33,999 bases of DNA. Origin: a virus. Within the stretch, counting starts at the first letter, position 1, and each line of letters begins with the position of its first letter. The DNA lies in IMG/VR virus record IMGVR_UViG_3300043466_002107, positions 1-33,999 of that record; one strand, given 5' to 3'. Under the pieces are notes generated by a model. That model saw nothing but the letters and a program-made list of their open reading frames with translations. It ran no database searches and was not told the origin of the DNA. Positions 1 through 33,999 of the stretch are shown here, one piece after another. The translations under genes and the position numbers were made by a program.

Positions 1-15
1 TAATACAAAAGAATA

Positions 16-57
16 GGGTGGTATTAGGTGGAAATGGGTGGTCACCTAATACCACCC
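16..57. other. Perfect 15-bp inverted repeat (hairpin 1 of junction region)
   Basis: GGGTGGTATTAGGTG at 16-30 is the exact reverse complement of 43-57, with a 12-base loop. It is the first of three hairpins packed into about 180 bases. The 15-mer GTATTAGGTGGAAAT at 21-35 recurs at 154-168, so hairpins 1 and 3 are related. There is no U run, so it is not a simple terminator. It may be an origin element or a protein-binding site; the function is not known. Confidence 0.85.
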
Positions 58-78
58 AATTCAAGTTGGAGGCGTTTT

Positions 79-116
79 GGGATATTGGGGGGGGTCTGTT
101 GACCCCCCCAATACCC
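79..116. other. G-tract/C-tract hairpin (hairpin 2 of junction region)
   Basis: Bases 83-93 (TATT followed by seven G) pair with 103-113 (seven C followed by AATA) around a 9-base loop. After a bulged A at 82, GGG at 79-81 pairs with CCC at 114-116. This gives a very stable stem of about 14 bp. The eight-G tract is unusual for this genome. No U run follows. Confidence 0.8.
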
Positions 117-153
117 AATACCCTTCGTCAAAAATGAATACTAAGAATTAGGT

Positions 154-196
154 GTATTAGGTGGAAATCCCTTAAGGGGGCCACCCAATACTTTTT
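154..196 (+). terminator. Terminator-like hairpin 3 with inner palindrome, upstream of the first late gene
   Basis: GTATTAGGTGG at 154-164 pairs with CCACCCAATAC at 181-191 with one mismatch and is followed by five T at 192-196. The loop contains the perfect palindrome CCCTTAAGGG at 169-178. The stem plus T run resembles an intrinsic terminator or attenuator on the plus strand, just before the gene starting at 230. It shares its 5' arm with hairpin 1, so it may instead belong to a repeated binding site. Confidence 0.5.
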
Positions 197-229
197 GATT
201 TTGTGAGTTTTCGTGTGGAGACATTGGAA

Positions 230-619
230 ATGTTGCAAAACGTGGTGAAAAAACAGGGTGGGGGGGATGTCCCCCAGTTGCTGGAAAAAAACAATGGGGG
301 GGTGGTCAATGATGCTGCGAACTGGGTGGACGATGACCGCATCACCTGCAACATGTGCCAGCACATGGCCCAGCACCTGCACACGGTCAACCTGCCAGCA
401 GATCATTTCGACAAGATCAGGCGAGAAAACCATATTGCCAATCGTTGGATGTTTGATATTGTCAAAATTAAAAATGGATGGGCAAGGGTTGAATATATGG
501 GCTGGCAATGTAATGGGGGCCAGCGTTCATATATTCCCATCGACATCAAACACCGATGCGACAGCTACAAACCAAAACAGACTGCCCAGGCATTTAATGT
601 GAAAGAATGGTGGGAATAA
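230..619 (+). CDS. Hypothetical protein, possible zinc-binding
   Basis: A 129-residue protein that I do not recognise. ATG 230 is chosen because GGAG lies at 216-219; an in-frame GTG at 203 would add nine residues but has no ribosome binding site. The N-terminal third is rich in Gly, Asn and Val. The middle carries CNMCQH, and further Cys residues occur in WQCNGGQR and HRCDSY, so a metal-binding fold is possible. The end resembles small Cys-rich proteins seen next to replication genes in related phages. It is the first gene after the hairpin-rich gap, and its stop TAA overlaps the ATG of the VRR-NUC gene (TAATG), which suggests translational coupling. Confidence 0.6.
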   Translation: MLQNVVKKQGGGDVPQLLEKNNGGVVNDAANWVDDDRITCNMCQHMAQHLHTVNLPADHFDKIRRENHIANRWMFDIVKIKNGWARVEYMGWQCNGGQRSYIPIDIKHRCDSYKPKQTAQAFNVKEWWE

Positions 620-996
620 TGCCAGATATAAAGAAACCATTTATAAAAAGAAAATCAACCGAATCAGTCGAGCAGATTAAATTCGTGCAGCACGTTCGCA
701 CGTTCTACCCCGAGGTGGTGATCTTCAGCGTACCCAATGGTGGGGATGTCTCGGCTACCCAGCGCATACGGCTTACCCAAGAGGGGATGCTGGCAGGTGT
801 TCCTGATGTGCTGGTCTTTGGTTTGAATCGACCAACACTTGCCATCGAGTTCAAACGACCTGATGGCAAAGGCAAGATCAGCCCAGATCAGCAGGCAGTG
901 GGGGTGCAGCTTGAAGGGGTGGGGGCCATTGTTAGGGTGGCTACATCAGCAGAACAGGCCAAAGGTTTCTTGCACGAATGGCTTGCAAAGGACTAA
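619..996 (+). CDS. VRR-NUC domain nuclease
   Basis: A 125-residue stand-alone VRR-NUC protein, a small member of the PD-(D/E)XK nuclease superfamily that phages use in replication, recombination or resolution of branched DNA. The core is visible: SVPNGGD, then GVPDVLVFG with the catalytic Asp, then AIEFKRPDGKGKISPDQQ with the E-x-K pair. Such domains commonly accompany SNF2-like helicases, DUF2800 and DUF2815 proteins in phages; all three of those are present here but in the opposite transcription block. ATG 619 overlaps the preceding stop; an upstream ATG at 607 would add four residues. The family is clear, the exact substrate is not. Confidence 0.88.
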   Translation: MPDIKKPFIKRKSTESVEQIKFVQHVRTFYPEVVIFSVPNGGDVSATQRIRLTQEGMLAGVPDVLVFGLNRPTLAIEFKRPDGKGKISPDQQAVGVQLEGVGAIVRVATSAEQAKGFLHEWLAKD

Positions 997-997
997 C

Positions 998-1324
998 ATG
1001 AACAAACAGACAGTAGAACGGCCAAGAGGTCGCACCTTGCAACGATTGCGATCACGCATCATGCAAGGCCAGCCGCTTTGCAAGATGTGCGAGGACAATG
1101 GCCTGGTCACCCCAGGTGTCGAGATGGATCACATCCAGCCGATCTTTATGGGGGGCAGCAACGAGGATGGCAACCTGCAAATGCTTTGTGTTGAATGTCA
1201 CCGAAAGAAGACCGCTGATGACCTCGGCATACGGTACAAGCCCACCATCGGCCTCGACGGTTGGCCGATCAGCCCGACAGAGCGCAAGCCGGGTGGGGCG
1301 GCGGGAAAGTCTAGCGAGAAATAA
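998..1324 (+). CDS. HNH endonuclease
   Basis: A 108-residue HNH nuclease. The N-terminal CKMC and the later CVEC form the zinc-ribbon Cys pairs, EMDHIQPIFMGG carries the catalytic His, and the second half of the beta-beta-alpha-metal fold is NEDGNLQMLCVECHRKKT. Small HNH proteins beside the terminase genes are known to assist terminase cleavage during packaging in HK97-like phages, and the position just ahead of the small terminase fits that role. The start at 998 follows the previous stop by one base. The C-terminal tail is Gly/Pro/Lys rich and probably flexible. Confidence 0.88.
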   Translation: MNKQTVERPRGRTLQRLRSRIMQGQPLCKMCEDNGLVTPGVEMDHIQPIFMGGSNEDGNLQMLCVECHRKKTADDLGIRYKPTIGLDGWPISPTERKPGGAAGKSSEK

Positions 1325-1398
1325 CTGTAAACCGGCATGGCTCCATCGTTTTTACGCAATCCCGAAATTTTGAAACCCGTTTTTGAGCAAGGCGCAAA

Positions 1399-1866
1399 AT
1401 GACAAAACGCAAAACGCGATCCGACTCGGCGGCAGCGGCCATCGATGCAATGGTGAATGCCTCGATGCCTCTTCCCGATGTTCCGGCGCATGTGAGGCTG
1501 GACAAATTGCACCTCCCATTCTGGGGCGGTATTATTCGCGCACGTGCGCGGAGCGAGTGGATCGAAACCGATCTGGTGGTGGCCGCACAGTTGGCCCGGT
1601 GTCAATATGACATCGAGCGCGAATCCGAATTGCTGGATTCCGAGGGCAGCGTGATCGAGAATGCCCGAGGCACGCCAGTCATGAATCCTCGCCATGCGGT
1701 GCTTGAGCAACTGGCACGGCGAGAAATGGCCCTGATGCGTGCTTTGCGCATCGCTGGTGCGGCGGCTGGCATCGATCCAAGGGATATGGTCAAAAAACGC
1801 GCATTGGAGCGCGAAAGCAGGGCCACCAAGGAAGAAATGCAAGAAGATGACCTGTTGGCCTCATGA
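1399..1866 (+). CDS. terS: Terminase small subunit
   Basis: A 155-residue protein in the normal small-subunit slot before the large terminase. It would recognise the packaging site and recruit the large subunit. A basic N terminus (TKRKTRSDS) is followed by a helical region and a conserved-looking LHLPFWGGIIRARARSEWIETDLVVAAQLARC segment, described by its ends rather than as a full motif. An oligomerisation-type helix rich in Arg and Glu and an acidic C-terminal tail (EEMQEDDLL) follow. AAGG at about 1389 supports ATG 1399. Assignment rests mainly on position and the overall pattern of phage small terminases. Confidence 0.75.
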   Translation: MTKRKTRSDSAAAAIDAMVNASMPLPDVPAHVRLDKLHLPFWGGIIRARARSEWIETDLVVAAQLARCQYDIERESELLDSEGSVIENARGTPVMNPRHAVLEQLARREMALMRALRIAGAAAGIDPRDMVKKRALERESRATKEEMQEDDLLAS

Positions 1867-1907
1867 TTTTTTCTAATTCCTCTAAATGAAGGGTACAATA
1901 CTTTTCT

Positions 1908-2531
1908 ATGAAAGGCGTTTCAAAAATCACAGGGAAAAGTCCAAGGTTTATTGACAGGACTGGGACGAGAAACGGACGATTAGTTTTTCTTGAGTGTTTG
2001 GGCGAGAACAATCATCGACACAGTGTTTGGCTTGCTTTGTGTGATTGCGGATCAAAAACAACAACAACAACACCATCAAAAACCATGTCTTGTGGCTGTT
2101 TTCAAAAAGAAGAAGCTGCAAAACGAGGAAGAGAAAAACGATTCTTGACCGATGAACAAAGGAAGCAGCGTGCGAAAGAAAACGCAGCAGTTCAGAGGAA
2201 AAGACGCGCCAGCGATCCAAACAGAGCGATGCAAGCGCGAATCAGCAGATTGCACCGACATGCCCTAAGTCAGGTTGGAGCAATAAAAACATCGCCAACA
2301 TTTACGCAGTTGGGCTATTCTGTTTCGGAGTTTGTAAAGCACATCGAGAGACAATTTGAAAAAGGAATGGGCTGGCAAAACATGGGTGATTGGCAGATAG
2401 ATCACATCATTCCGATAAGCACAGCAAAGACAGTTGAAGATGTGATTTTTTTAAATCAATTGTCAAACCTGAGACCTCTATGGGCAAAAGAAAACAACGC
2501 GAAGAAGAACAAACTTCTAAGCCTGATATGA
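1908..2531 (+). CDS. Free-standing HNH homing-type endonuclease
   Basis: A 207-residue HNH protein between the two terminase genes. An N-terminal zinc-finger-like module has CDCG (about residue 46) and CGC (about 62), as in many phage mobile HNH nucleases. A very basic Lys/Arg/Gln middle follows, and the C-terminal HNH core shows WQIDHIIPIS and NLRPLWAKENNAKK. The gene is visibly richer in A and T than its neighbours (for example a run of ACA codons near 2057-2075), a sign of separate origin. Its stop overlaps the start of the large terminase (ATGA at 2528-2531). It looks like a selfish homing gene, although a packaging role like that of other terminase-linked HNH proteins cannot be excluded. 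Confidence 0.85.
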   Translation: MKGVSKITGKSPRFIDRTGTRNGRLVFLECLGENNHRHSVWLALCDCGSKTTTTTPSKTMSCGCFQKEEAAKRGREKRFLTDEQRKQRAKENAAVQRKRRASDPNRAMQARISRLHRHALSQVGAIKTSPTFTQLGYSVSEFVKHIERQFEKGMGWQNMGDWQIDHIIPISTAKTVEDVIFLNQLSNLRPLWAKENNAKKNKLLSLI

Positions 2532-4069
2532 AAAAAAAGCTCACAAGAGGTGAACGAGTTTGTGAGTTTATTAGCCGATATCTGATCGTGCCCGAGGGCG
2601 ATCTGATCGGAAAACCGATTCGGCTTGAGCCATTCCAAAAGCGGTTCATCTTGGAAATCTACGACAACCCTGCTGGCACGCGCAGGGCTTTTTTGTCAAT
2701 TGCCCGTAAGAATTCCAAAACGGCCACCATTGCCTGCATTTTGCTGGCGCACATCGCTGGTCCAGAGGCAAAGCAAAACAGCCGGATTATTTCAGGGGCG
2801 ATGAGCAAAGAGCAGGCAGCCGAGGTTTACAACTACGCCAGTAAGATGGTGATGATGTCGCCAGCATTGGGCGAGGTCATCAGGATTGTGCCTAGTTCAA
2901 AGAAGCTGATCGGGCTGGCGCGAAATGTGGAATATCAGGCGGTGAGCGCCGAGGGCAAAACAGCGCATGGCAAGTCTCCAGTGCTGGCCATTCTTGATGA
3001 AGTTGGACAGGTCAAGGGGCCGCAGTCTGATTTCATCGATGCGATCATCACGGGTCAGGGCGCTTATTCCGATGCGATGCTGTTTGCGATCAGCACGCAG
3101 GCCAGCAGCGATGCCGATCTGTTCAGCATTTGGCTGGATGACGCGATCCAGAGCCAAGACAAGCGAATTGTCTGCCACCTGTACGCAGCGCCCAAGGATT
3201 GCCCACTGGATGACCGAGAGGCATGGGCATTGGCCAATCCGGCGCTTGGGAAATTCCGAAGTTTGGCCGATGTGGAGGAACAAGCTGATCGCGCCAGCCG
3301 AATGCCATCGTTTGAGCCAACATTTAGAAATCTGGTGCTGAATCAACGTGTGGAGATGGTGGCCCCCTTCATTTCTCGCGGCATTTGGCTTTTGAACAGC
3401 CAAGACCCTGACGAATCTGCGTTTTACGATGGCGAAGTGGTGGTCGGAATCGACTTATCAGGGCGAAATGACCTGACATCGATGGTGATATTGGGCGAAA
3501 AGGACGGAAAATTTCATGTGAAACCCTACTTTTGGACACCTGAAAAGGGTCTGAAAGACCGTGCCAAGCGTGATCGGTCGCCTTATGATGTGTGGGTCAA
3601 CCAAGGATTCATGCGGACAACACCAGGCGCATCGGTGGATTATTCGTATGTCGCCCGTGAAATGAGCGAGATTTTGGCCGATTGCACGGTGAAAAAGGCC
3701 AATTTTGACCGATGGCGCTTTGATTTACTGAAAAAAGAGTTTGAGAATATTGGTTTTGACATACCATTGGAGCCATTCGGTCAAGGCTTCAAGGACATGG
3801 CCCCTGCTGTCGATCAGTTGGAAACTTTGCTTTTGAATGAGCAAGTGGCGCATGGTGGCCATCCGGTTTTGACCATGTGCATGGCGAATGCTCGAATTGA
3901 GCGCGATGCGGCTGGAAACAGAAAACTGAACAAGGCCAAGGCCACAGGTAGAATCGACGGGGCGGTGGCACTTGCAATGGCAATTGCTGCGGCCATGACC
4001 AACAACGACGAGGACGATGGCGATTTTGACGATTTCCTCAGTTCACCACTTGTAATAAAACACGGCTGA
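2528..4069 (+). CDS. terL: Terminase large subunit
   Basis: The ATP-driven packaging motor and headful or site-specific nuclease, 513 residues from ATG 2528. Visible motifs are an atypical Walker A ARKNSKT (about 59-65), Walker B LAILDEVGQ (DE about 157-158) and the C-terminal RNase H-like nuclease starting at GIDLSGRND (Asp about 309), with a late acidic residue in RIDGAVALAMA. The family is the HK97-type terminase (Terminase_1). ATG 2528 overlaps the stop of the HNH gene in an ATGA; an in-frame ATG at 2480 would add 16 charged residues and overlap the HNH gene by 52 bases. The family normally begins close to the RGERV segment, which favours 2528. The C terminus ends in an acidic run. Confidence 0.95.
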   Translation: MKKKLTRGERVCEFISRYLIVPEGDLIGKPIRLEPFQKRFILEIYDNPAGTRRAFLSIARKNSKTATIACILLAHIAGPEAKQNSRIISGAMSKEQAAEVYNYASKMVMMSPALGEVIRIVPSSKKLIGLARNVEYQAVSAEGKTAHGKSPVLAILDEVGQVKGPQSDFIDAIITGQGAYSDAMLFAISTQASSDADLFSIWLDDAIQSQDKRIVCHLYAAPKDCPLDDREAWALANPALGKFRSLADVEEQADRASRMPSFEPTFRNLVLNQRVEMVAPFISRGIWLLNSQDPDESAFYDGEVVVGIDLSGRNDLTSMVILGEKDGKFHVKPYFWTPEKGLKDRAKRDRSPYDVWVNQGFMRTTPGASVDYSYVAREMSEILADCTVKKANFDRWRFDLLKKEFENIGFDIPLEPFGQGFKDMAPAVDQLETLLLNEQVAHGGHPVLTMCMANARIERDAAGNRKLNKAKATGRIDGAVALAMAIAAAMTNNDEDDGDFDDFLSSPLVIKHG

Positions 4070-7549: not shown

Positions 7550-7576
7550 AAAAAAGGGGGCGCAAGCCCCTTTTTT
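7550..7576 (+). terminator. Intrinsic terminator after the capsid gene
   Basis: Bases 7550-7561 (A run, then G run, then C) pair with 7566-7576 (G, then CCCC, then T run) around a GCAA tetraloop of the GNRA type. The 3' arm ends in six T. It lies 12 bases after the capsid stop and should reduce read-through into the connector genes. The A run on the left makes it bidirectional in form. Confidence 0.85.
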
Positions 7577-15400: not shown

Positions 15401-16116
15401 AGCAATTTGTCGCCCTGCTGGACATGTCGGAATCTTTTGCAGGCTTGTCCACAATCATGGAAGAACAGCAAACATCGCTGTTGGGATTGATTGAAGCAGC
15501 GCCGCAGGTCGAGATTTTGCAAAAAATGTTTGAAACCGATTCCTCGTATCAGGAACGAGTGCAAACGGCAGGAGAGATGGCACAGGCCACATTTGATGGC
15601 CTGTTGACCACAATGGGCAAGGTCGATGTTTCGATCAACAACTTGACAACCATCATGGCATCTCGCCTTGATAGATTGTCAACCGATATGGCAACAGCCT
15701 TGGCCCAGTCACGCGCAGCAGCTGCAAGCGCAATCGCAGTCGCCAACGCATCGGCGGCAGCAGCAATTGCTGCGGCATCTAGGGCGGATGCAACCCCTGC
15801 AATCGATTATGCGAATACAGCGGCCATGGGCGGCTACATTGATGGGCCAACACTGGTGGGTGAGCATGGCCCAGAGATCTTTGATCCTCGCCAGAGCCAA
15901 ATCTACACAGCCCCAGCCACAAGCAACATCTTTGGCGGCAATGAGTTGACAGCCGAAATGCGAGCCTTGCGCGATGAGGTGGCCATGATGCGTTACGAAA
16001 CCCGAAGCACTGCTGTAAATACTGCCAAAATTGCCAGATTGCAGGATAATTGGGATGTTCGTGGTCTTACTGTTAAGACCGATGTTGACCAACCCCTGGA
16101 TACAGTGACCGTATGA
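12496..16116 (+). CDS. Tail tape measure protein
   Basis: A 1206-residue tape measure that sets tail length. The N-terminal ~200 residues show the conserved tape-measure domain (FGTLNASLVTVTGSAREADK, NFAATTPFSLQEVTAAFIKM, GNTASAMGKSLNQM). A hydrophobic stretch at about 271-328 could cross the host membrane during DNA entry. Long Gln/Glu/Lys-rich helices fill the middle (about 340-620), another Gly/Ala-rich hydrophobic segment follows at about 630-700, and Ala-rich helices precede the C-terminal GGYIDGPTLVGEHGPEIF motif common in these proteins. At roughly 1.5 angstrom per residue the tail would be about 180 nm. ATG 12496 follows the chaperone closely. Confidence 0.95.
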   Translation: MATPVGQLTIEMAANIVRLQKDMESARKTVDGAMASITKSVESAMRTVGALFAGVSIGAFAGKLVSVEREFGTLNASLVTVTGSAREADKAFALLTNFAATTPFSLQEVTAAFIKMKAMGLDASEGALRSYGNTASAMGKSLNQMIEAVADAATGEFERLKEFGIRAKSEGDRVTLTFRGVSTNIGKNAAEIEGYLRRIGDVDFAGAMDARAATLDGAISNLGDSWDSLFRTINDEMTGPLLLTAVQGAQTAVAGLSDVVKNFAQFIDDNKVTLMALGAIFAAPLLVSGIGATVAAFGALKLAVMGVTAAFAANPIALAILAITAAAVPAIDGIQRYMNANKALEKEQAGLNQSQAETERLLRQAEPVKAKAVVSTKELTDAQKKAAEEQKKQTANYEKLLNDIEDKTGAMLLEQQQTEKLSDSQKLALKIMQDIQSGTLKLNQSQKIKITQSLEELLNTERLNAEMKDLAKTQQAAIALSNKLNDEQNKTTESMRATVVSLMEQNDELRLGKDAVIARQVAVMRSTATDLEFAAATYEGNEALAEQARLLRQQADLTENNSMLSAAKEANKELEKTTGTVGEIEKSLTDALMRGFESGKGFGQNLKDTLINMFKTLVLNPIIQPVASGAASSVLNVLGMSSGANGLMLGGASLAAQGTAFGQGFLSSVSGMISGGAPVTSMGSATSAAFNMGGSAANTAAMAMPYVAAALVALNALGVFRSNKTVGGGVTGTLGGDLQEYDLNRRGGTLFSGPDYSIANMRVSETTEAMNAAFTALRNKSLAAAFALGANNTQLETFTYALSEQLHPDLNELGLMLDGLTDDQKQEKIRGVLMAAEEAMAAIIVGASGLQLAGETAVQALNRLMAIQTASDALNQFGGAFSTFATASITARQSIIELAGGLDALIQKTQGFVANFYSKEEQAGITARGLVQALETAGFTAAQIAALETRADFRTLLESLDVNTDLGQQQFVALLDMSESFAGLSTIMEEQQTSLLGLIEAAPQVEILQKMFETDSSYQERVQTAGEMAQATFDGLLTTMGKVDVSINNLTTIMASRLDRLSTDMATALAQSRAAAASAIAVANASAAAAIAAASRADATPAIDYANTAAMGGYIDGPTLVGEHGPEIFDPRQSQIYTAPATSNIFGGNELTAEMRALRDEVAMMRYETRSTAVNTAKIARLQDNWDVRGLTVKTDVDQPLDTVTV

Positions 16117-17021: not shown

Positions 17022-17753
17022 ATGGCCATCACTCCACTGCCAACGCCTCCCAGCCGGGACGATCCCACAAACTTTTCAGCCCGTGGCGACGCATTTCTGG
17101 GCGCATTGCCTGACTTTGCGACAGAGGCGAACGCCCTGGCCGTGGATGTGAACGCAGACGCTGTGGCGGCGGCTGCCGCTGAAACAGCAGCCACAGCAGC
17201 CGCAGCAGCCGCAGCAGCAGCGGCCAATGTGACCAAGTGGGTCAGTGGCACAACATACACTGAAGGCGCGGTCGTTTGGTCGCCGATCACCTATCTGTCA
17301 TATCGTCGCAAGTCCACAGGCGGCGGCACGACAGACCCAAGCGCAGACAGCACAAACTGGGCGCAAGCGGCTGGCACGGGTGATGTCACGCAGACTGGCA
17401 CACAGACCCTGACAAATAAGACACTGAGCGCAGCAGTCCTGAACGATGGCTACACCGAAGAAATCTTTGCTGTCACAGGCACAACGCCAGCCCTGTCGCC
17501 CACCAACGGCTCGATCCAGACATGGACGCTATCTGGCAACAGCACACCCACGGCTGGAACGTGGGCAAATGGTCAATCCATGACGCTGATGATTGATGAC
17601 GGAACAGCCTCAACTGTCACTTGGACATCACTTGCTGTGACTTGGAAGACCAATGGCGGCACAGCGCCAATACTGAACACCACAGGTTTTACAGTGATTC
17701 AACTTTGGGAAGTCGGGAATGTGATTTACGGCGCTCGCGTGGGAGATGCTTAA
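17022..17753 (+). CDS. Tail fibre-like protein with Ala-rich helix and CBM-like module
   Basis: A 243-residue protein. Residues ~38-68 are almost all Ala (encoded by GCA/GCC repeats), a helix that probably forms a trimeric stalk. A CBM5/12-like module follows: KWVSGTTYTEGAVVWSP then YRRKSTGGGTTDPSADSTNW. Then comes the phage fibre motif DVTQTGTQTLTNKTLSA and a beta-rich tip ending in FTVIQLWEVGNVIYGARVGDA, given here as the short piece QLWEVGNVIYG, found at the end of many fibre proteins. It probably connects the tail tip to the receptor-binding protein encoded next; its stop TAA overlaps the next ATG (TAATG). Confidence 0.8.
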   Translation: MAITPLPTPPSRDDPTNFSARGDAFLGALPDFATEANALAVDVNADAVAAAAAETAATAAAAAAAAAANVTKWVSGTTYTEGAVVWSPITYLSYRRKSTGGGTTDPSADSTNWAQAAGTGDVTQTGTQTLTNKTLSAAVLNDGYTEEIFAVTGTTPALSPTNGSIQTWTLSGNSTPTAGTWANGQSMTLMIDDGTASTVTWTSLAVTWKTNGGTAPILNTTGFTVIQLWEVGNVIYGARVGDA

Positions 17754-19795
17754 TGCTTGCTGACAAACTCAGAGCGGCTACTGCTGCGGCCAAGCCCAAA
17801 GCATTGGCCGTGGCTCACGTGGGTTCACCTTTTGTTACTGTGTACTCATGGGGCGATAGTGGCTTTCGTGGGGTGTACTCTAGCCCAGCAACACTTCCAG
17901 CAAGTTCTGGCCTCGGTGTTTCTTTCAGCCCCAACGGCTCTTCCATTGCTGTAGTTCACAACACTACACCTCGCATCACAGCCTACCCTTGGAGCAGTTC
18001 AGGTTTTGGCACAAAATACGCCAATCCAGCAACGTTACCAGCAAGTACTGGCTATGCTGTAGCATTCAGCCCTGATGGCTCTGCTATTGCTGTAGCGCAT
18101 GGCACGACCCCATTCATCACGGCATACCCTTGGAGTGGATCAGGATTCGGCACTAAGTACGCTAACCCCTCAACACTGCCTGTCAATAATAGCTACGGTG
18201 TTTCTTTCAGCCCTGATGGTAGTGCTGTCGCTGTAGCTAATGACAGTACACCCTCTATCACTGCCTACCCTTGGAGCGGTTCAGGTTTTGGTACTAAGTA
18301 TGCTAATCCCTCAACACTTCCAGCGGGTACTGGCAACGGTGTCGCATTTAGCCCTGATAGTTCTGCTATTGCTGTAGCGCATGGCACGACCCCATTTATC
18401 ACCGCCTACCCTTGGAGCGGCTCTGGTTTTGGGACTAAATATACAAACCCAGCAACGCTACCCACCGGCAGCGGCAGCGGTGTCTCTTTCAGCCCTAACG
18501 GCAGTGCCATTGCTGTAGCGCATAGCATCTCGCCTTTTATCACCGCCTACCCTTGGAGCGGTACTGGTTTTGGCACTAAGTACGCTAACCCTTCAACACT
18601 TCCTGGAACTCAGGGCAACGGTGTTTCTTTCAGCACAGACGGTTCTGCTATTGCAGTTGCTCACAGTGGAGCACCATTTATCACCGCCTACCCTTGGAGC
18701 GGTTCTGGTTTTGGCACTAAATATGCTGACCCAGCAATTCTTCCGCCTAGCTCTGGCAACGGCTGCGCTTGGTCTGCAGTGGGCGACACACCGCCACCGA
18801 TTTATTCTTTGGCTGTTTCGCACACCACAACACCATTTATTACCGCATATCCTTGGAGTGGTTCTGGATTCGGCACTAAATACGCTGATCCAGTAACACC
18901 TCCAGCGGGTAATGGCAACGGTGTTGCATTCAGTCCTAACGGTGGGTTTATTGCTGTAGCTCACAGCATCACACCTTTTATCACCGCCTACCCTTGGAGC
19001 GGCTCTGGTTTTGGTACTAAATACAGCAATCCGGGAGCACTGCCTGCGAGTACTGGCAACGGCTGCGCATTCAGCCCTGATGGCTCTGCTGTTGCTGTGG
19101 CCCACCCCAGCAGCCCATTCATAACGGCCTACCCTTGGAGCGGTTCGGGATTCGGCACTAAGTTTTCCAATCCTGGAACGTTACCAGCAAGTACTGGCTA
19201 TGCTGTAGCATTCAGCCCTGATGGCTCTGCTATTGCTGTAGCTCATGCCAATACACCATTCATCACCGCCTACCCTTGGAGCGGTTCAGGTTTTGGCACT
19301 AAGTATGCTGATCCCGCAACACTGCCTGCGAGTACTGGCAACGGCTGCGCATTCAGCCCTGATGGCTCTGCTGTTGCTGTGGCCCACCCCAGCAGCCCAT
19401 TTATCACCGCCTACCCTTGGAGCGGTTCGGGATTCGGCACTAAATACAGCAATCCTGGAACGCTGCCTGCTGGCACTGGCAACGGCGTCGCATTTAGCCC
19501 CAATAGTTCTGCTGTTGCTGTAGTACACAACGGCTCCCCATGTGTTACCGCTTACCCTTGGAGCGGTTCAGGTTTTGGTACTAAGTACGCCAACCCCTCA
19601 ACAATTCCAACAGGCAATGCTGCCAACGGTGTGGGATTCAGCCCGGATGGCTCTGCTATTGCTGTGGCCAATAACCTTACACCATTTATCACCGCCTACC
19701 CTTGGAGTGGTTCTGGTTTTGGAACTAAGTATGCTGACCCCTCAACACTGCCAACAGGTGTAAGCAGTGGCATTGCTTTCGGTAAAATCAATTAA
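17753..19795 (+). CDS. Tail receptor-binding protein with 14 propeller-type repeats
   Basis: A 680-residue protein whose residues 18 to the end are 14 tandem repeats of about 47 residues with the core IAVAH-x4-PFITAYPWSGSGFG then TKYANP-x2-LP and GVAFSPDGSA, given in short parts. The pattern (AVAH strand, P-W-S-G turn, SPDGS-x-IAVA) is that of WD40/TolB-like beta-propeller blades. Repeats 1-7 and 8-14 are separated by a divergent linker with TPPPIYS, so two seven-bladed propellers are inferred. ATG 17753 overlaps the previous stop; an extension to 17621 lies in another gene. It is probably the host-recognition protein at the tail tip. The exact receptor is unknown. Confidence 0.85.
   Translation: MLADKLRAATAAAKPKALAVAHVGSPFVTVYSWGDSGFRGVYSSPATLPASSGLGVSFSPNGSSIAVVHNTTPRITAYPWSSSGFGTKYANPATLPASTGYAVAFSPDGSAIAVAHGTTPFITAYPWSGSGFGTKYANPSTLPVNNSYGVSFSPDGSAVAVANDSTPSITAYPWSGSGFGTKYANPSTLPAGTGNGVAFSPDSSAIAVAHGTTPFITAYPWSGSGFGTKYTNPATLPTGSGSGVSFSPNGSAIAVAHSISPFITAYPWSGTGFGTKYANPSTLPGTQGNGVSFSTDGSAIAVAHSGAPFITAYPWSGSGFGTKYADPAILPPSSGNGCAWSAVGDTPPPIYSLAVSHTTTPFITAYPWSGSGFGTKYADPVTPPAGNGNGVAFSPNGGFIAVAHSITPFITAYPWSGSGFGTKYSNPGALPASTGNGCAFSPDGSAVAVAHPSSPFITAYPWSGSGFGTKFSNPGTLPASTGYAVAFSPDGSAIAVAHANTPFITAYPWSGSGFGTKYADPATLPASTGNGCAFSPDGSAVAVAHPSSPFITAYPWSGSGFGTKYSNPGTLPAGTGNGVAFSPNSSAVAVVHNGSPCVTAYPWSGSGFGTKYANPSTIPTGNAANGVGFSPDGSAIAVANNLTPFITAYPWSGSGFGTKYADPSTLPTGVSSGIAFGKIN
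17804..19792 (+). repeat. Tandem 141-bp repeat array (14 units)
   Basis: The DNA repeats with a 141-base period matching the 47-residue blades. The most constant segment encodes TAYPWSGSGFGTKY. Synonymous differences show the array is old in part. However, 19039-19119 is identical to 19321-19401, exactly 282 bases (two units) apart, which points to a recent two-unit duplication or gene conversion. Long arrays of this kind are prone to recombination and to assembly collapse. Confidence 0.9.
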
Positions 19796-31600: not shown

Positions 31601-31694
31601 AGGTTTACGACCCCGGCTAGGGTAGCTCCCGAAAAGCGGATTGAACCACCGCCTGCCGCAAGGTCTTTCAAATGGTTCGACATCAGAGGTTCAG
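31601..31694 (+). promoter_or_regulatory. Structured leader of the primase-helicase gene
   Basis: A 94-base non-coding gap. GGG-TAGCT-CCC (31620-31630) and GCGG...CCGC (31636-31652) can form hairpins. TGAACC (31642-31647) can pair with GGTTC at 31674 or with GGTTCA at 31688-31693, which overlaps the AGAGG ribosome binding site (31685-31689). Alternative pairings of this kind suggest translational control. No tRNA or known riboswitch was recognised. Confidence 0.4.
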
Positions 31695-33851
31695 ATGGAA
31701 AACAACCCCATTTCCAATTCGCATCCATCAAAGGCAGTCGCCCAGGCCATTGCCAACATTTGCCCAGATGCCCTGTTTTGCGGCTTTAAGGTCAAGCAAA
31801 ATGCCAATGGCACATCGGCCAAGATACCCTTCAACAAGCACGGCCAAGGCGTGGCCGCCAGCACTCCAAAATCTGACCTGATTCAAGGCAGCGAACTGTC
31901 AGACCATCCACCAGGCGGTGAGCATTGGGGCGTGGTCATGCAAAACCCCACATTTGACCCATTTGGCGAACTGGTGCTGACTGTCCTTGATCTGGACATG
32001 AAACGCAGCACAGCCCCCAGAGACATCCGCATGGACAGAATCATGGGGCAGGCCAAGGCCATGGGCCTGATGACCGAGCGCAGCCACAGCAAAAAGGGCG
32101 GCCACATCATCTTTTTGGCAAAGCCTGATCCCGACATGCCGCCAAAGATCAACTTGGGCAACCACCAAGAGATCGAGATATTCGGCCATCCAAAGTCGGC
32201 GGGTAAATCGGTGATGCTCACAGGCGATGCCCTCAAGGGCGATGTCAACGAGATTAACTGCACGCTGCAAGAATTCTTGGCCCAGGCTGGCATCACCATC
32301 GAAAAAGCCCCAGAGCCAAAACCAGCGCCAGCGCCCATCTTGCCCAAGATCACCACCAGCAGCGACATGGACAGGGCAGCCGATGCACTAGATCATATTG
32401 TCTTGATTGATGGTGATTACGATCAATGGATTGATATTGGCTTTGCACTTAAAGAAGGCTTTGGAGATTCAGCATTCGGTCTTTGGGATGAGTGGAGTTC
32501 AAGGACATATGACTATGAAGGCACAGAGGCTTTGCGCAGGAGATGGGATAAGTTTGAAAACTCAAAGGGCATAACCCTAGCCACCCTTTTTCATATTGCC
32601 AAGGATCATGGCTATAAGCCACCATCGGTTCAGGATGAGCGCAGAACAGCAGTCGAGGACTTTGGCAGATTCCTCAAAGCCCAAGAAGCAGGGCCAACGG
32701 TCGATCAGGACACTGGCGAGATCACCCAGCCACCAGCCCTGCACTGGCCCGAGATTGACTACAGCCTGACCAAGCTGGAGCCGATCTGCTACCTGGTTGA
32801 CGGGTTCCTTGCCCACAGCCTGTTTGTTATGGCAGGCCAACCCGGTGTCGGCAAGACCAGCGCCCTGATTGCCTTGGCAATGGTTCAGGCAGGTTTTCAG
32901 ATCGATGGCTGCGAACTCAAGACCCGCAAAAAGCGCAAGACCATATTTGTCACCGAGGACTCAGACCAGATCGTGCGCAGCCTCTTTGCCTATGGCAAGC
33001 ACTTTGGCATCGATCCAGTGATGCTCTGCCAAATGATCGTCATCATCGATGCGCGGCGCTCTGATGTGAAAGACATCCTGAAGCTGGCGCAGAACTGCGA
33101 CAAACACACATTGGATGGACAGCGGCCATGGCTGGTGCTGGACACAGCCAACGCCACCCTCGACCTCGATGATGAGAATGACAATGCCAAGGTCGGCCAA
33201 TACTTGTCCAGCATCAAGGCCACCCTGTTCGTGCAAATGGGCGTGCCAGTCTGCATCACAGCCCACACCAACAAGACCATCAGCCGCAAAGACAGCGATG
33301 CCCAGGCCCGAGGTGCATCAGCCTTCACAGGCGATGCAACCCTGACAGGCATCTTGTTCCTGGACGATGACCAGCAGCGATACATGAAGCTGACCAAGAC
33401 CCGCTACGAGCCAACATTCAGGGAAATCAGATTCGATTCACAAACATTTACTGAGGCAGTAACCGATGCCGATGGTGAATTGCAAGAGATCGTCTGTCGC
33501 GTATCTGTTCCACACATCAGCAGCGAGGAATTAAGGGTTAAGGCAGCAGCAGAAAAAGCCGATGAAAAGCGGCAAGACGCGATTATGGATAAATGTGACC
33601 AGGCTTGTGCATATATCCAATCGATAATGAATCAAAATAATAATGGCGTGATTATTCAAAGAGGTGCTGGCCGCATTTCAATACCCGACACAATGGTTAA
33701 TATGACACCACTGAGGTGGGCCGATATTCTCGACCAAGTGCCTGGGGCCAACAACGATCCAGACATGAAGAAGGCCATCAAGCAAGCAGTCTGCAACCGC
33801 TTTGGCGTTGACCATCTTGGGCTTCCAGGATGGGTGCAATTGCATGGATGA
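31695..33851 (+). CDS. PrimPol / PriCT-2 / RecA-type replicative helicase
   Basis: A 718-residue replication protein with three parts. The N-terminal ~200 residues look like an archaeo-eukaryotic primase-polymerase of NrS-1 type: LTVLDLDMKRS (metal-binding D-x-D), SHSKKGGHIIF (H motif), EIEIFGHPKSAGKSVMLTG. A PriCT-2-like helical module follows (ADALDHIVLIDGDYDQWIDI then FALKEGFGD, WDEWSSRTYDYEG). The C-terminal half is a RepA/DnaB-like RecA-fold ATPase with Walker A GQPGVGKTS and Walker B WLVLDTANATLDLDDEND. ATG 31695 has AGAGG in front; a TTG at 31641 is rejected. It would prime and unwind at the origin, possibly the adjacent hairpin region. Confidence 0.9.
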   Translation: MENNPISNSHPSKAVAQAIANICPDALFCGFKVKQNANGTSAKIPFNKHGQGVAASTPKSDLIQGSELSDHPPGGEHWGVVMQNPTFDPFGELVLTVLDLDMKRSTAPRDIRMDRIMGQAKAMGLMTERSHSKKGGHIIFLAKPDPDMPPKINLGNHQEIEIFGHPKSAGKSVMLTGDALKGDVNEINCTLQEFLAQAGITIEKAPEPKPAPAPILPKITTSSDMDRAADALDHIVLIDGDYDQWIDIGFALKEGFGDSAFGLWDEWSSRTYDYEGTEALRRRWDKFENSKGITLATLFHIAKDHGYKPPSVQDERRTAVEDFGRFLKAQEAGPTVDQDTGEITQPPALHWPEIDYSLTKLEPICYLVDGFLAHSLFVMAGQPGVGKTSALIALAMVQAGFQIDGCELKTRKKRKTIFVTEDSDQIVRSLFAYGKHFGIDPVMLCQMIVIIDARRSDVKDILKLAQNCDKHTLDGQRPWLVLDTANATLDLDDENDNAKVGQYLSSIKATLFVQMGVPVCITAHTNKTISRKDSDAQARGASAFTGDATLTGILFLDDDQQRYMKLTKTRYEPTFREIRFDSQTFTEAVTDADGELQEIVCRVSVPHISSEELRVKAAAEKADEKRQDAIMDKCDQACAYIQSIMNQNNNGVIIQRGAGRISIPDTMVNMTPLRWADILDQVPGANNDPDMKKAIKQAVCNRFGVDHLGLPGWVQLHG

Positions 33852-33877: not shown

Positions 33878-33999
33878 TAATACAAAAGAATAGGGTGGTA
33901 TTAGGTGGAAATGGGTGGTCACCTAATACCACCCAATTCAAGTTGGAGGCGTTTTGGGATATTGGGGGGGGTCTGTTGACCCCCCCAATACCCAATACC
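33878..33999. repeat. Direct terminal repeat, right copy
   Basis: Identical to 1-122. The 26 bases from 33852 to 33877 join the primase-helicase stop to this repeat; across the circular join the whole gap to the next gene start (230) is about 255 bases and holds three hairpins. Confidence 0.95.

Follow-up and report, generated by a model that had tools for sequence, protein, structure and literature searches.

A hairpin and repeat element next to a PrimPol-helicase gene is the probable replication origin of an uncultivated tailed phage

The window, that is, the whole 33,999-nucleotide stretch analysed here (virus record IMGVR_UViG_3300043466_002107), carries within its first 196 positions a three-part element (A, B, and C) that, judging from sequence comparison, is probably the replication origin of the phage; we give this reading a probability of a little under nine in ten. 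A candidate origin had already been proposed here in a preliminary description of this DNA, and that proposal is now supported by GC-skew minima and by an architecture of the slot downstream of the initiator gene that recurs in relatives. Computation has established the anatomy of the element, the layout kept among relatives, the turnover of its repeat unit, the skew, an enrichment in DnaA boxes, and an association between the unit and the C-terminal domain of the putative initiator.

Anatomy of the element

The main features of the region are the following:
11-62, no strand assigned: element A, in which the iteron-like unit GTATTAGGTGG is present as an inverted pair; arms 11-30/43-62 with a perfect core at 16-30/43-57
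80-116, no strand assigned: element B, a central hairpin with a G8 tract; arms 80-93/103-116, perfect 83-93/103-113
147-196, no strand assigned: element C, made of a direct unit (147-164), the loop core AAATCCCTTAAGGGGG (165-180), an inverted unit (181-191), and T5 (192-196)
203-619, plus strand: gene for a small CxxC (zinc-finger-like) protein, likely start ATG 230; homologues in 60/83 near loci
607-996, plus strand: VRR-NUC endonuclease gene, which travels with the module; present in 62/83 near loci
31641-33851, plus strand: putative initiator, a PrimPol-PriCT2-RepA-like helicase of 736 residues; likely true start ATG 31695, with AGAGG before it
33878-33999, no strand assigned: assembly end overlap, same DNA as 1-122, so that elements A and B appear twice in the linear contig

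The three hairpins described earlier within positions 1-196 were all found in place. Hairpin 1 contains the perfect 15-bp inverted repeat, and its arms stretch to 20 nt at 95% match. Hairpin 2, the G/C-tract hairpin of about 14 bp, pairs over 14 nt at 93%, with a perfect core of 11-bp arms and the G8 tract at 87-94. Hairpin 3 (arms 154-164/181-191, 10 of 11 positions paired) encloses the palindrome CCCTTAAGGG (169-178) ahead of its T5. The 15-mer common to hairpins 1 and 3 is likewise real, an exact direct repeat GTATTAGGTGGAAAT at 21-35 and 154-168. Because a genome-specific unit is common to both, we read these two hairpins as iterons in direct and inverted orientation and not as unrelated structures. 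Altogether, near-copies of GTATTAGGTGG occur four times beside the initiator gene in the window, twice in direct and twice in inverted orientation, and relatives carry more. The hairpins had also been placed at a circular junction: the genome is indeed circular, but the junction itself is merely the assembly cut, marked by a 122-bp exact end overlap. Since positions 1-122 equal 33878-33999, the element A-C is uninterrupted in the 33,877-bp circle.

Recurrent 9-mers number 23 in the window slot, against a shuffled mean of 1.3 (shuffle maximum, 7). Across the whole genome, perfect stems of at least 10 bp with loops of up to 20 nt are limited to hairpins 1 and 2 and a terminator-like stem at 7550. 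The latter (AAAAAAGGGGGCGCAAGCCCCTTTTTT, 7550-7576), a 10-bp stem with a T-run just 3' of the major head protein gene, is likely an intrinsic terminator. RNA from either strand of the slot has a very stable fold, and an Rfam search of the element retrieved no known RNA. The most repeat-rich DNA of the window lies elsewhere, at 17621-19795 (plus strand), where a 724-residue protein with many repeats of about 42 residues (ITAYPWSGSGFGTKYANP...FSPDGSAIAVAH) is encoded, perhaps a beta-propeller-like receptor-binding or tail protein.

The putative initiator and its neighbourhood

The hairpin region follows the PrimPol-helicase gene, as originally described, and has the small zinc-finger gene on its other side. 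The putative initiator comprises an AEP PrimPol domain (residues ~30-235), PriCT-2 (247-320), a RepA-like AAA_25 helicase (372-546), and a C-terminal domain (~605-736). The AEP motif residues D117/D119, S150/H155, and E177/E179 are invariant in 29 sequences, and the fold matches that of the NrS-1 PrimPol (6a9w); a PDB sequence search with the initiator profile gave no match. The helicase part has Pfam AAA_25 and RepA/DnaB fold matches (Foldseek 1g8y and 1nlf), and no SF3 helicase domain was found in the initiator. For the C-terminal domain, Foldseek returned no significant match and VIA-align only weak and unreliable rows, including winged-helix domains such as MAGE (Z 5.2) and the C-terminus of yeast Cdt1 (Z 4.5); together with the AlphaFold model, these weak structural matches faintly suggest a winged helix. 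An Rfam match to the int-alpA RNA (RF02996, 36.5 bits, gathering 35.8) lies at 31610-31675 on the plus strand, directly before the likely PrimPol ATG, and in L002, L004, L013, and L014 int-alpA matches also occur at, or shortly upstream of, the beginning of the PrimPol match.

Downstream of the element, the genes for the CxxC protein, the VRR-NUC nuclease, an HNH nuclease, and the terminases follow in this order (607-4069 from VRR-NUC to the large terminase), and beyond the terminases come portal, head protease, capsid, and tail genes, those of a tailed phage.

A kept layout with changing units

Some 80 viral loci encoding a related initiator came out of two scans. The 400 nt past the initiator stop (the slot) were read in 67 of them, window included; 65 of these slots had sufficient length and came down to 32 after removal of redundancy. 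The conservation of the stems in relatives, which had been suggested as a check on the origin proposal, takes the form of a slot architecture that recurs while its sequence turns over. In nearly all slots, A consists of two to four tandem units spaced by about 10-12 bp plus an inverted copy, B is a central hairpin, and C combines a unit, often joined by a partial second one, with a loop core like AAATTCCTTTAGGG and an inverted unit. At the position of B, most relatives have a hairpin of other sequence, and in several of them DnaA boxes lie within or next to this hairpin. The loop of the third hairpin is ATTCCTTWRGGG-like in most relatives, and the loop pattern CTTW[AGC]G occurs in 21/32 slots, with 6.9 expected. 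Recurrent 9-mers are in excess in every one of the 32 non-redundant slots (8-49 versus shuffled means of 0.4-1.3). A few slots deviate: the C stem of L060 is unrelated, L062 is without a clear C, and A and C of L017 share a string of only 8 nt.

Counted by eye, there are about 15 unit types, and A and C of one genome usually share one. The units include:
Window: GTATTAGGTGG
L001: TAATAGTTGG
L002 and L029: TAATCCGGTAG
L016: GTAAACCGGTA
L003 and L022: GTCGAAGGGAC
L006 and L030: GTCGACCGGAC
L032: ATATGGGGACG
L018: CAACGGGTA
L020: TCAAGGGGTG
L009 group: CGGAGATACC
There are others besides.

The longest string shared by A and C of the same genome averages 13.2 nt, against 8.1 nt when the C elements are permuted (p<=1e-4; none of 10,000 permutations reached the observed mean). 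In the 27 genomes with a clear C stem, each of 12 stem positions is occupied by three or four Watson-Crick pair types, a variety that reflects turnover of paired bases and is no independent estimate of pairing, because the stem search itself demands pairing. Among the non-Watson-Crick cells of these stems, 7/10 are G-T. The consensus DnaA box TTATCCACA is present in 17/32 slots versus 11/664 control stretches of the same loci; none was found in the window slot.

Several further peculiarities were observed in individual slots. Those of L001 and L012 have a second direct repeat, AAAAATGAATACTAAGAATT, ahead of both A and C, one copy of which is retained in the window at 131-150. The genome's own unit also turns up within the next gene's coding sequence in L016 (TGTAAACCGGTAAAAC), L022, L032, and the L009 group. 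In the clade of L034, L046, and L050, the A and C units are the same at their ends (TCGG..ACC) and different in the centre, possibly a unit change under way.

GC skew

The GC skew, another check suggested at the outset, places the detrended cumulative minimum of the window at 33452, 550 bp from the hairpins, and the maximum at 15628, a distance of 0.46 of the circle; both stay put once the hairpin region is cut out. In the other 11 near-complete genomes of the PrimPol group (G001-G008, MW202879, G422, and G426) the minimum lies 102-373 bp from the element, so that the distance is 102-550 bp in 12/12 genomes, which do not amount to twelve independent tests since they are related and several are linear contigs treated as circles. 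Third-codon GC skew in the window is -0.197 for the PrimPol gene and between -0.014 and +0.16 for the next seven genes, HNH being the sole tested downstream gene with a negative value (-0.014) and the rest ranging from 0 to +0.16. Gene direction alone does not explain this switch, because the neighbours on both sides of the element run the same way. In six more distant genomes the skew does not single out the element: the minimum is 2.2-2.7 kb off, at the rep 5' end, in three of them and elsewhere in the other three.

The unit follows the C-terminal domain of the initiator

Similarity of the units correlates with identity over initiator residues 640-736 (rho 0.59), versus 0.43 for the helicase and 0.17 for the PrimPol half. 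Controlling for the PrimPol half, the C-terminal domain has a partial correlation with the unit of 0.57; the value is 0.50 when the helicase is controlled for and 0.39 with the downstream zinc-finger gene. The reverse partials, given the C-terminal domain, are 0.04, 0.27, and 0.12, respectively. Mantel-type permutations remove shared ancestry incompletely. The zinc-finger gene is about as near to the unit as the C-terminal domain is, on the opposite side. Natural chimeras go in the same direction. L002 and L030 are 89% identical in the PrimPol half and 51% in the C half, and their units differ; L002 and L029, with 45% and 86%, share their unit; L016 and L033, with 97% and 66%, have different ones. 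The rule is not strict, since L022 and L003 share a unit despite identities of 43% and 48%. Sequence comparison thus associates the unit with the C-terminal domain of the initiator and not with its PrimPol half, an association behind part of which could be physical linkage (recombination).

Distant relatives

Initiators with an AAA_25 helicase at ~30-37% identity are found in bacterial contigs (L085, L086, L088, and L089) and many viral contigs; one scan alone gave 303 viral candidates. The helicase of these relatives is of the same kind, but they are without the PrimPol-first layout. The primase part differs in the L086/L088 type, because PriCT-2 is N-terminal in both and a weak Toprim match below the threshold was seen in L088. 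When profiles of the C-terminal domains were compared between the PrimPol group and the L086-type group, nothing was found. Repeat-rich DNA begins at the rep 3' end in 30/49 non-redundant distant cases, with units such as these:
L089: GGGAACGGAC
L156: ATCAAGTGG
L179: TAATCGTTTGG
Several distant cases have the loop core in reverse orientation. In the remaining 19/49 no repeat-rich start was found at the rep 3' end; in some of them, such as L132, the array lies about 1.6 kb further on.

Alternative explanations

Hairpins next to a rep gene might serve transcription, with hairpin 3 and its T5 as the terminator of the PrimPol gene, while hairpins 1 and 2 would act as operators or attenuators for the next operon. 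The T5 does close hairpin 3, 33 bp ahead of the likely start of the next gene, yet the T-run is short or absent in many relatives (such as L001, L002, L007, and L009) that keep the hairpin, and such signals leave unexplained the skew minima, the DnaA boxes, and an A-C unit that follows the C-terminal domain. We therefore deem a purely transcriptional element very unlikely, a secondary terminator role of hairpin 3 being possible. It seems very unlikely indeed that the origin lies elsewhere and that the element is only a regulatory or incompatibility site, namely a structured RNA or an operator bound by either the initiator or the zinc-finger protein. Inverted repeats adjoining rep genes often act in autoregulation, and the stable RNA fold of the slot on both strands and the G-T cells of the C stems would suit an RNA; however, inverted protein sites also account for the inverted copies, the element lies 3' of rep and not at its promoter, the unit goes more closely with the C-terminal domain than with the zinc-finger gene, and the skew minima coincide with the element in all 12 genomes.

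Packaging, which the preliminary description had named as an alternative, is disfavoured and can be considered extremely improbable. The element would then be a pac or cos site for the small terminase, whose gene starts ~1.2 kb downstream beside the HNH gene. HNH-terminase neighbourhoods are typical of cos phages, and here VRR-NUC, HNH, TerS, and the large terminase follow in a row. The terminases, however, do not travel with the element: homologues of the window TerS and TerL went undetected in 83 near and 85 far loci that keep rep, within the limited flanks available and for proteins that diverge, and in distant relatives the unit arrays remain at the rep gene. The GC skew also favours replication.

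Comparison with known replication systems

Just 3' of its PrimPol gene, the Sulfolobus plasmid pRN1 needs a stem-loop of ~100 nt with a conserved fold and a variable sequence; a similar stem-loop has been noted in the Bordetella phage BIP-1 (PMC4234260). The window resembles both in having a multidomain PrimPol-helicase gene with a structured element directly downstream whose fold is kept while its sequence varies, and it shares PriCT-2 with BIP-1. By contrast, pRN1 and BIP-1 have an SF3 helicase, one large stem-loop, and no iterons (PMC4234260), whereas here we find a RepA-like helicase, usually three elements, a genome-specific A-C unit, and DnaA boxes in many relatives. Iterons, hairpins, and a RepA-type hexameric helicase recall the oriV of RSF1010 (IncQ) with RepC, RepA, and RepB', although in the present phages the primase, the helicase, and the presumed binding domain are fused and the primase domain is of the NrS-1/AEP type. 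The alpha protein of phage P4 likewise unites primase, helicase, and origin binding (presumed in our case) in one protein, but its primase is a Toprim and the P4 iteron sequence is not shared. In P4, ori and crr form a pair of widely separated regions. Its alpha protein binds the iteron origin via a C-terminal winged-helix domain (PMC4234260). In AEP proteins of the PrimQH type, PriCT is joined to helicases, RepA among them, and to a C-terminal winged helix for which a role in origin recognition has been suggested (PMC5862659); the window initiator shows AEP, PriCT-2, and AAA_25 and, as faintly predicted, may have the winged helix.

In PLE satellites, the RepA_N DNA-binding domain covaries with the iterons while the remainder is conserved, the modules are swapped, and the ICP1 nuclease Odn cuts the origin, with selection on initiator and iteron change demonstrated (PMC8263062). 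Covariation of the unit with the presumed binding domain of the initiator and swapping of modules are common to both cases, but the PLE initiator is unrelated (RepA_N), its iterons are of ~30 bp, and nuclease selection in the present phages would be speculation. Copies of an origin in the cell can block phage lambda (PMC4488673). The present case joins traits of these systems: a probable PrimPol-linked origin, iterons, a RepA-like helicase, and changing units. In the open-licence papers searched we found no description of shared genome-specific units in PrimPol-linked origins.

Proposed mechanism and implications

If the element is the origin, the C-terminal domain of the initiator would bind the repeat unit, the helicase would be loaded at the element, and the DNA would probably open at the B hairpin and about the AT-containing core of C. 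Priming by the PrimPol domain would follow, and exposed hairpins may be its sites, by analogy with the ssi hairpins at which RSF1010 RepB' primes. Host DnaA may assist via its own boxes in about half of the relatives, the window being without boxes. Forks would depart both ways, since the skew sign flips at the element and again roughly opposite. We also entertain, with considerable doubt, that the unit serves each phage lineage as a private address, altered time and again together with an exchangeable C-terminal address domain of the initiator and under pressure from origin-targeting nucleases, origin decoys, or co-infecting relatives.

The proposed origin would be placed at base-pair scale and tied to one gene in uncultivated, seemingly mostly aquatic phages. 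The large natural set of initiator-origin pairs, swapped-half chimeras included, could allow the recognition rules of the initiator to be derived and offers a concrete route to asking why origin words diversify. Were the private-address reading true, these phages would hold many mutually orthogonal initiator-origin pairs, swappable across PrimPol and other primase-helicase backbones.
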